The notes beneath the pieces are model-generated. The model worked only from the letters and a program-made list of their open reading frames with translations, searched no databases and was not told the origin of the DNA. The translations under genes and the position numbers were made by a program. Of a stretch of DNA of 64,000 nt, positions 44,483 to 47,673 are shown piece after piece (the first letter of the stretch is position 1; each line of letters starts with the position of its first letter). The stretch comes from Tumebacillus sp. BK434 (GTDB lineage: Bacteria; Bacillota; Bacilli; Tumebacillales; Tumebacillaceae): NCBI RefSeq assembly GCF_004340785.1, contig NZ_SLXS01000001.1, positions 992,001-1,056,000 of the forward strand, given 5' to 3'.

Positions 44483-44807
44483 TCAGAACGGAGAGAACCA
44501 GCGCTCCCGCTTGAAGTCGCCACATTCACCCGGCAGCGACTCCTTGACGATGCGGTAGTAGGGCAGCGCCTGCTGTCCGTCGCCTTTTTGCAACATCGGT
44601 GCGCTTCAGCCGCTCCACGGTGATGCCAAGGCCGCCGGAGATCTTCTCCAGTTCTTCTGCGGTCGCATAGCGGCCGTCGAGATTCCGCTCCAACGTCATC
44701 CGCCCGAGATCGATCGCTTTGGCAAAGCCACGCGCTTTGACTTTTTTCTCCGCCATGATCTCGCGGATGCGCCGTCCGAGCCAGACGTTATAATCCCGCT
44801 CCGCCAC
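44483..44807 (-). pseudogene. XRE-like regulator gene with an apparent frameshift
   Basis: A helix-turn-helix protein starts at GTG 44807 (AAGGGG seven bases before). It begins VAERDYNVWLGRRIREIM, then has ARGFAKAIDLGRMTLERNLD and LEKISGGLGITVERLKRTD. In this frame the protein ends at 44526 with an unnatural Arg/Ala-rich tail. Shifted by one base at about 44596, the reading continues MLQKGDGQQALPYYRIVKES to a stop at 44483, which looks like normal protein. I therefore think a single frameshift at about 44595 breaks the gene, either in nature or as a sequencing error. The undisturbed frame is 44526-44807. Confidence 0.6.
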
Positions 44808-44874
44808 ACGACCACCCCTTTCCGTTGCGAAAGCCAGCGGGCAAGCCTCGCTGGCTTTGATTCTCAGCTTGCTG

Positions 44875-45681: not shown

Positions 45682-45921
45682 TTAGAGACTCCAAACATCG
45701 TACAGATCGGCGACCGGAATGCCCAGCGCCGAAGCGATGCTCGACAGCTTGGTCGCGTTCGCGCCGCGGTTGCCCGACTCGATCGCGTAGATGTAAGATT
45801 GCGAAACGCCGGCGCGATCCGCCAGCTCTTTTACCGACAAACCCGTTTGTTTTCTGATCTTTTTCAGTTGCATACCAATCGTCAAATCGCTCATCTTATC
45901 TGACTCCCCATCTGTTTTCAT
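45682..45921 (-). CDS. Small XRE-family regulator
   Basis: A 79-residue protein that is almost entirely a helix-turn-helix domain (LKKIRKQTGLSVKELADRAG, then VSQSYIYAIESGNRGANATK). It ends IPVADLYDVWSL. It is probably a dimeric DNA-binding repressor. Two starts are possible: ATG at 45921 with AGGGGG nine bases before, and ATG at 45894 with GGGGAG nine bases before. It is divergent from the XRE-TPR regulator at 46135, and the shared region holds a duplicated motif (45986-46046) that one or both may bind. Confidence 0.85.
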   Translation of the reverse strand: MKTDGESDKMSDLTIGMQLKKIRKQTGLSVKELADRAGVSQSYIYAIESGNRGANATKLSSIASALGIPVADLYDVWSL

Positions 45922-45985
45922 TATTGTTTTCCCCCTACCAAAGCTAAACAATAACGATTTGATATTTACTTACTTTATAACATAA

Positions 45986-46046
45986 TTTTTCGAACAAAAA
46001 CCGCATTCGCTTTAATTAAAGCTCCATCGACATTTTTCGACAAAAT
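45986..46046. repeat. Two copies of TTTTTCGA(A)CAAAA in the divergent regulatory region
   Basis: TTTTTCGAACAAAAA at 45986-46000 and TTTTTCGACAAAAT at 46033-46046, starts 47 bases apart, between two divergent XRE genes. Each is partly palindromic (TTTTT-CGA). A role as operator is inference. Confidence 0.5.
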
Positions 46047-46134
46047 ATTACTTGAAAATTTCGTCCTCTATGGTCTTTCTGCCTCAATTTTGCTAAAATA
46101 CAAATACAACCATTTGAATCATTGGAGGTTGGAG

Positions 46135-47451
46135 ATGAATCAGGCTTGGAAGAAGCAGCAGTTTATTCAGATTGGTCAGAATATTCGTGATCGTCGTAAG
46201 GCGATCGGTTTGACCCAGAGCCACTTAGCCGAGGGTCTCTTTTCTGTGCAGGCGATCTCCCTGATCGAACGGGGCAAGCTGAAAGTGACGCCCGAGACCT
46301 TGGAGGTGTTTGCAGAGCGGTTGAACTGCAGCGTTCAAGACCTGCTTCAAATGAAAGATCTCCTGGAAGAATGGTTGGAAGAACTCCTCCAAACGGCACT
46401 CCGCTTTCAAGAAGCTAACCAATCGGCCGAGGCGATGGCAGTCCTCCATACGCTGTATACGGAAGCACTTTCGAAGAACAACATGCGATACTTACAGGAA
46501 AGTTCCTACCTGCTTTGCCTCTTATACCACTCAATTGCCAAATACAACACATCGACGGACTGGGGTCAGCAGGCGCTGCGCGTGCTCGACCCCGAGCCGC
46601 ACTTAGACCGTGTGCTCAACACCTACATCACCCTCAGCCGCAACTACTACATGGTCGGCAAGATGTGGGAAGCTTTCGACTTGCTGCGGGAAGCGGAACA
46701 TCTCGTCGAGGACCCTGCGGCGACCGCCGAAGCGGGCAATCTTTATTTCAGCATGGCGATCATCAAGCAAATGCTGCAGAACTGGGAAGGCTGCATCTGG
46801 TATTCGGAACAGGCGCTCACGCAATACGAACTGCGGGATGATATCATCCGCATGGGGCGCACCCTGATGATGATGGGCACCGCCTACAAGAATCAGGGCC
46901 GGGTCAACATCGCCAGACTGCACATCGAACGCTCGATTCGGATCTTGAGCCAAACCAACGATGCCCGTTCGCTGGCCCGCTGCTACCACAATCTCGGCGA
47001 AGTCGAGCTGAAAATCGGTGCTGATGAGAAAGCGCGCAAACACTTCTTGCGTTCGCTCAAGCTGAAACGGCAGTCGGGCGACACCGCCAGCATTCAAAAC
47101 ACGCTGCACGCCCTCGCGAAAGTCGAAATGAAAAATGGCAATCTGGAGGAAGCGCGCTCCATCCTCCAAGATTGCCTCACACGCGCCGAACAGATGAACA
47201 ATCCCCTGCAATTGGCGATCACCAAACGACACTTTGGCGATCTTTCCCTCATGCAAAATCAGGAAGAAGAATTTGTCCTCTTTTACAAACAAGCGATCGA
47301 AGCTTTTGAAAAATTGGAGTTCTCCACCGAATTGGCCGAAGCTGCGGAGAAACTGGGCGAGTACTATATCGAGAAAGGGAGGGAACGTCTCGCGATCCCC
47401 TATGTGCGTTTAGCGAACAAACATTATCGAAAGCTGCTTAAAAAATCGTAG
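46135..47451 (+). CDS. XRE-TPR regulator, candidate RRNPP peptide receptor
   Basis: A 438-residue protein with a helix-turn-helix at about residues 10-70 (IGQNIRDRRKAIGLTQSHLA) and then tetratricopeptide repeats to the end, including RNYYMVGKMWEAFDLLREAE and RCYHNLGEVELKIGADEKAR. This is the architecture of RRNPP receptors such as PlcR and NprR. ATG at 46135 follows GGAGG closely; the longer frame to 46090 has no ribosome site. A gene for a secreted 51-residue peptide follows 14 bases downstream. I infer a peptide-responsive regulator. Confidence 0.85.
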   Translation: MNQAWKKQQFIQIGQNIRDRRKAIGLTQSHLAEGLFSVQAISLIERGKLKVTPETLEVFAERLNCSVQDLLQMKDLLEEWLEELLQTALRFQEANQSAEAMAVLHTLYTEALSKNNMRYLQESSYLLCLLYHSIAKYNTSTDWGQQALRVLDPEPHLDRVLNTYITLSRNYYMVGKMWEAFDLLREAEHLVEDPAATAEAGNLYFSMAIIKQMLQNWEGCIWYSEQALTQYELRDDIIRMGRTLMMMGTAYKNQGRVNIARLHIERSIRILSQTNDARSLARCYHNLGEVELKIGADEKARKHFLRSLKLKRQSGDTASIQNTLHALAKVEMKNGNLEEARSILQDCLTRAEQMNNPLQLAITKRHFGDLSLMQNQEEEFVLFYKQAIEAFEKLEFSTELAEAAEKLGEYYIEKGRERLAIPYVRLANKHYRKLLKKS

Positions 47452-47465
47452 AGGAGCCAAGTAGC

Positions 47466-47621
47466 ATGAAAAAATTCGCTTTGGTATTGTCGATTGCATC
47501 CGCGCTTTTTCTCGCTCTGTCCCTGCTGCACACCGCCCCGGCGATGGCCGATGATCCGCCAATTTGGGAGGGCTGCACGAAATCGGGCGTGCTCCCGAGC
47601 GCTTGCGTGCAAGCGCCCTAA
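47466..47621 (+). CDS. Secreted peptide precursor, 51 residues, next to the XRE-TPR regulator
   Basis: I read this gene from the sequence: ATG at 47466, TAA at 47619. It has a textbook signal peptide (MKKFALVLSI, then a hydrophobic core and TAPAMA, cleavage after residue 28). The predicted mature peptide has 23 residues, starts DDPPIWEG and contains two cysteines (37 and 47) before ending ACVQAP. GAGGAG lies nine bases before the ATG, overlapping the intergenic space after the regulator. It is cotranscribed with the regulator and ends at a terminator. It is the candidate signal of an RRNPP pair. Confidence 0.78.
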   Translation: MKKFALVLSIASALFLALSLLHTAPAMADDPPIWEGCTKSGVLPSACVQAP

Positions 47622-47635
47622 CCGATCCTGGATAC

Positions 47636-47673
47636 AAAAAGGAGACCCCGCTCCGGGAGTCTCCTTTTGTTTG
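47636..47673 (+). terminator. Terminator of the regulator-peptide operon
   Basis: AAAAGGAGAC / GTCTCCTTTT hairpin, followed by GTTTG, 14 bases past the peptide stop. Confidence 0.8.

Follow-up and report, generated by a model that had tools for sequence, protein, structure and literature searches.

The question raised by this locus is whether a regulator with an XRE-type helix-turn-helix (HTH) and tetratricopeptide repeats (TPRs), encoded in the 64,000-nucleotide stretch of DNA analysed here (the window) from the soil bacterium Tumebacillus, forms together with the short gene behind it a receptor and propeptide for cell-to-cell signalling of the RRNPP(A) type. The comparison covered seven genomes of one family (Tumebacillus and a sister genus), the window genome included. 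Such a signalling pair was found to be very probable, because the small gene directly follows the regulator and its product carries a PP-x-W core in all seven species. An earlier note on this DNA had proposed a peptide quorum-sensing pair; its layout, its linkage and the coding nature of the small gene were upheld, whereas the cysteines are not the conserved feature, a C-terminal signal is improbable and the pair is not an isolated one.

The receptor gene (46135..47451, + strand) encodes a protein of 438 aa with an XRE HTH at residues ~12–72 and nine TPRs at residues 76–437. Pfam returned HTH_3 at residues 17–70 (E 3.8e-8) and TPR_12 (E 4.6e-23), which confirmed the RRNPP layout first read from the letters alone, and both the length and the repeats agree with RRNPP receptors, which have 250–500 aa and TPRs. 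No specific family was returned for the receptor or the peptide when they were searched against NCBIfam and PHROGs. A first AlphaFold model of the receptor, built from 7 sequences (pLDDT 74.5, with a poor middle part), was superseded by a model from 68 family sequences (pLDDT 94.8), in which the HTH is followed by 18 TPR-type helices, that is, nine TPRs. When the model was compared with the PDB by Foldseek, the top match was eukaryotic LGN, a generic TPR superhelix, followed by Rap and NprR as the best bacterial fold matches (target TM up to 0.83 and 0.68, respectively), it being understood that eukaryotic TPR proteins score highly too, as with any TPR fold. A family-profile search matched PlcR over HTH and TPRs (E 9e-28), NprR (E 5e-27) and also Rap, and homology to known members is thus indicated by fold and profile alike. 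Nine non-degenerate TPRs are characteristic of clan B (NprR, QssR and Rap), and nine-TPR receptors have been linked mainly to dormancy control (PMC12700828). The architecture in the model fits this clan, to which the window receptor may belong. One close receptor orthologue was present in each of the seven family genomes, with identities of 92, 87 and 55–60%, and the nearest paralogues share only about 22% identity with the window receptor. A scan of named genomes for the locus returned only four loci, all in Tumebacillus. Beyond the family, where homologues of the receptor reach 27% identity across most of their length, none was accompanied by a PPxW gene. Some of these outside homologues are accompanied by other, repeated propeptides: at three loci (L017, L020 and L022) an XRE-TPR gene is followed by precursors repeating QSEPGGL four times, an ASDEHIYN-like core five times and AVDEHGY four times.

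The propeptide gene (47466..47621, + strand) begins 14 nt past the receptor stop (47451) and has its own ribosome-binding site, GAGGAG, as the earlier note had described; the site (47451..47456, + strand) overlaps that stop. The 51 codons of the gene lie within the 10–100 aa known for adjacent RRNPP propeptides and comprise a predicted signal peptide (residues 1–28, 47466–47549) and an exported part (residues 29–51, 47550–47618). The product reads MKKFALVLSIASALFLALSLLHTAPAMA, then DDPPIWEGCTKSGVLPSACVQAP after cleavage, the cut being predicted by the A-x-A rule; the signal peptide ending in TAPAMA and the 23-residue remainder with two cysteines, both pointed out previously, are present in the sequence. 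In the window gene the predicted signal peptide consists of KK, a hydrophobic core and an A-x-A site, and those of the other genomes are similar in layout; all were called by a rule-based test. The hairpin AAAAAGGAGACCCCGCTCCGGGAGTCTCCTTTTG (47636..47672) lies with a T-run 3' of the small gene. Since the 14-nt gap has no room for a terminator, this one is common to both genes, as already proposed, and it is probably bidirectional, serving the facing PHP-phosphatase gene too. A hairpin was found at this position in all seven genomes, folding at −24 to −36 kcal/mol. Scans for consensus promoters and terminators performed at chance level, and the elements reported here rest on conservation.

The shortness of the small ORF, together with a propeptide family search that gave nothing above the cut-off (a Phr N-terminal model stayed sub-threshold, E 0.11), would be compatible with an ORF that exists merely by chance in the 3' UTR of the receptor mRNA. 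That explanation is already contradicted by the conservation, selection and enrichment data and is considered extremely improbable. The small gene adjoins the regulator in every one of the seven orthologous loci, 14 nt after its stop in six cases and 20 nt in the remaining one, each time preceded by an A/G-rich Shine-Dalgarno sequence and encoding a predicted signal peptide, and 7/7 genomes share the gene order MBL hydrolase, xre70, receptor, peptide, PHP phosphatase, thiG. Nei-Gojobori counts, with significance by binomial test, gave dN/dS values of 0.171/0.743 (0.23, p 8e-4) for the pair G000–G001 and 0.297/1.67 (0.18, p 3e-6) for G003–G006, so that these best pairs show more synonymous change, set against non-synonymous change, than would be expected. 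The non-synonymous deficit was not significant for G000–G002 (binomial p 0.13), dN/dS was about 0.85 for G003–G004, and most of the distant pairs were saturated. Within-genus pairs showed the slowest change in the propeptide core and the fastest in the tail. These counts show coding selection acting on the small gene, with a dN/dS of about 0.2 for each of the two best pairs, and both tests on which the earlier note had made its claim depend, conservation beside the regulator and selection at synonymous sites, came out in its favour. The position in 7/7 loci, the purifying selection and the enrichment of such ORFs after paralogous receptors, described below, place the gene beyond chance.

The alignment of the seven orthologous propeptides left M1, K2, P31, P32 and W34 as the only invariant columns, with PP[ITY]W directly after the predicted signal-peptidase site in every one of them. 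The predicted signal core, DDPPIW (47550..47567, + strand), contains the invariant PP and W, and the variable tail with the Cys pair, EGCTKSGVLPSACVQAP (47568..47618, + strand), is the fastest-changing part. With the cuts placed by rule, the exported peptides would start DDPPIWEGC, DDPPIWDSC and DDPPIWTKC in three orthologues and ENEPPTWDPC, DNEPPYWMTC and DNEPPYWTPC in the other three that bear cysteines, and in the seventh the whole exported peptide would be DQPPIWGKH, with both cysteines absent. The tail past the tryptophan has 3 residues in this one species and 16–49 in the other six, where the Cys pair brackets the hypervariable stretch; the first Cys lies at W+3 in 6/6, and one orthologue has a third Cys. 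No cysteine was found in the exported part of 37 MK/MR-type propeptides belonging to other receptor groups, and the Cys pair is therefore special to the orthologue group of the window. The loop that the earlier note had singled out as distinctive was nevertheless ruled out as a conserved feature, being missing in one of the seven orthologues, and the conserved ring cysteines of a looped (thiolactone or disulfide) pheromone are likewise lacking there. It is very unlikely that the exported peptide serves as the active signal in its full-length, disulfide-closed form, whether extracellularly or bound to the receptor as a loop: the presence of the pair in 6/7, the constant W+3 position and the joint loss of both cysteines in the seventh would suit such a signal, but the species without them retains receptor, synteny and core, the loop varies widely in length and sequence, and the conserved neighbours include no sensor kinase or modification gene.

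The likely signal is the linear N-terminal core DDPPIW, because PP[ITY]W is conserved and the cysteines are not; the C-terminal fragment proposed earlier is probably not the signal, since the conserved part lies at the exported N-terminus. The strongest evidence for the signal part is the shortest orthologue, in which the core plus GKH would make up the entire exported peptide. The conservation of PP[ITY]W in 7/7 predicted mature forms agrees with the short conserved signal, of about 5–10 residues, of RRNPP systems. A point against this reading is the position of the core at the exported N-terminus, as most Phr, PapR and AloP signals are C-terminal, that of PapR among them. A parallel for an uncommon position is offered by PhrH and PhrK, from which internal peptides are released (PMC7425212), and another by NprX, which the RRNPP_detector report (PMC10075063) names as deviating from the C-terminal rule.

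In the mechanism proposed for the pair, the propeptide would be exported via Sec, signal peptidase I would cleave after AMA to leave DDPPIW at the N-terminus, and the variable tail would be trimmed by extracellular proteases. An oligopeptide permease would then re-import a peptide of ~6–9 residues centred on DDPPIW, eight OppA-like binding proteins being encoded in the window genome. The re-imported peptide would bind the concave TPR face of the receptor and alter HTH binding to the divergent control region, and the receptor would in this way set the expression of its own receptor-propeptide operon and of the divergent gene xre70.

The latter (45682..45894, − strand) encodes a 70-aa XRE regulator (Pfam HTH_3, E 3.6e-16) that is present in one copy per family genome, is 84–100% identical in 7/7 and shows stronger conservation than the receptor. 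The intergenic region between the two genes has mostly diverged between genera, yet four elements are kept at fixed offsets in 7/7. The candidate operator is the perfect palindrome CTTTAATTAAAG (46010..46021), kept in all seven genomes, two of them with one mismatch. Its exact sequence occurs once per genome, at the locus only, in five genomes and not at all in the other two, which carry a one-base variant at the same place. A wider regulon for this palindrome was considered and rejected, as no second exact copy occurs in any of the seven genomes. At a constant 26-nt offset from it, TTCGACAAA (46036..46044) was found in 7/7; it is the reverse complement of TTTGTCGAA, which resembles the Spo0A-box consensus, and Spo0A is encoded in the window genome. 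The putative receptor promoter has an extended −10-like element, TGCTAAAAT (46091..46099, + strand), of TGnTA type in 7/7 and 54–55 nt from the Spo0A-like box, and that of xre70 has TGTTATAAA (45974..45982, − strand), also in 7/7, at a constant 36-nt offset from the palindrome. Such an arrangement suggests that the operon and xre70 are controlled together and locally. That the receptor controls xre70, its candidate output, has about an even chance of being correct, and a Spo0A input to the circuit is somewhat less probable than that; given that the Spo0A-box-like site is conserved, the circuit may be coupled to the onset of stationary phase or sporulation. The most far-reaching proposal, an RRNPP subfamily with an N-terminal signal, a disulfide-closed, fast-evolving tail that controls signal release or timing, and a receptor jointly controlling xre70 under Spo0A input, is speculative and rather unlikely as a whole.

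The seven genomes show that the window pair is not isolated, as many pairs of this kind occur throughout the family. In the window genome the receptor has about 30 matches of XRE/TPR type, and a downstream propeptide was assigned by rule to 11/27 receptors. Among the loci with enough flank in the seven genomes, an ORF of 25–120 codons with a ribosome-binding site and a signal-peptide-like N-terminus at −25 to +90 nt follows 46/84 XRE/TPR paralogues vs 5/206 other genes (Fisher p about 1e-24, the genes being related and so not independent), and two of the latter five ORFs themselves resemble pheromone precursors (QTVPPTPLSIIKTP and QTVPPEPAGIIAFQ). Pheromone-like small genes (VPPTPLSIIKTP and VPPEPAGIIAFQ) were observed at L074 and L081 after genes missed by the receptor profile, and more such pairs therefore probably exist. 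Tandem cores are found in paralogue precursors, namely FIHDAEPL (four times), FINGGEPLSPKFA-like (five times), NEPPEPM-like (three times), IFDPDPL (twice) and QYEPGIPM (twice), and RRNPPA precursors with repeated mature signals are known (PMC9765709). At L039, L103 and L113, four to five near-identical tandem cores of the first two kinds directly follow XRE-TPR receptors, and the core sequence of this type of propeptide varies between species. Four further loci (L037, L096, L112 and L117) encode TPR receptors that, at ~365 aa, do not reach the length of the HTH-bearing ones and may be Rap-like, with downstream precursors that repeat EPPEPM-like or PP/DP-type cores. In the window itself, another XRE-TPR paralogue (L054, 31744–33021, − strand) has no detected secreted small gene after it, and the remnant of a second XRE-TPR gene (44486–44811, − strand) lies beside the MBL hydrolase; compared with the intact T. 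avium ORF at this position (about 390–411 aa, L061 3513–4748), ~0.84 kb of its middle is gone and its frames are mismatched. The similarity of receptors and propeptides was weakly correlated over 44 pairs, and the correlation was gone without the close orthologues; how similar two receptors are does not predict how similar their peptides are, and no claim of co-evolution is therefore made.

No propeptide could be detected for about half of the XRE/TPR paralogues, and the presence of an XRE-TPR protein therefore does not in itself prove peptide sensing. This lends some weight to the idea that the regulator merely controls, and does not sense, a small secreted peptide with an antimicrobial or cell-surface role, as do the long, often T/P-rich and Cys-bracketed tails, in which these peptides differ from short pheromones. 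Such a role is improbable, given that DQPPIWGKH alone, as exported in one orthologue, is too short for a structured antimicrobial, that the terminator and the facing PHP gene come next in place of any immunity or export gene, and that repeated short cores, typical of pheromones, occur in many paralogue pairs.

Among known systems, NprR–NprX of the Bacillus cereus group (clan B) shares the HTH with nine non-degenerate TPRs, the propeptide directly downstream and the Sec-type export predicted for the window pair; NprR is both a sequence and a fold match, and NprX also departs from the C-terminal rule (PMC10075063). The window pair differs from it in its distinct receptor group, PP[ITY]W core, Cys-bracketed variable tail and divergent xre70. 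AloR–AloP of Paenibacillus polymyxa, linked there to sporulation control, likewise comprises many HTH-TPR paralogues, each with a secreted small gene downstream (PMC7425212), with 16 AloR receptors in that genome vs the 11 with a propeptide by rule here. AloR falls in clan C, whose nine TPRs are degenerate (PMC12700828), whereas the TPRs of the window receptor are canonical, and AloP13 yields a C-terminal 6-residue peptide, in contrast to the N-terminal core found here. PlcR–PapR also combines an XRE HTH and TPR regulator with an exported propeptide downstream, but PlcR has five TPRs (PMC12700828) and the window receptor nine. Rap–Phr shares the nine-TPR fold and the secreted precursor downstream, but Rap has no HTH and acts on response regulators, and the Phr signal is usually C-terminal. 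The layout fits the size, TPR, adjacency and ribosome-binding-site criteria of RRNPP_detector (PMC10075063), the signal peptide being assigned by rule only. That 2023 survey covered complete Firmicutes genomes and reported systems from Alicyclobacillaceae, the NCBI family of Tumebacillus; for these reasons the window pair may already be within its tables. Literature searches found no paper naming both RRNPP and Tumebacillus, and nothing relevant on Tumebacillus quorum sensing. The pair is well supported as an RRNPP system, and its precursor is unusual.

If this reading is true, the RRNPP family would gain Tumebacillus as a lineage in which peptide signalling channels are numerous, and the likely signal could be read from conservation or, among the paralogues, from repeats inside the precursor. 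The window pair combines one locus inherited in 7/7 genomes, a predicted ligand of 6–9 residues, a candidate operator that is unique and a divergently encoded gene as the obvious target, and receptor, ligand, operator and output would therefore be directly testable.
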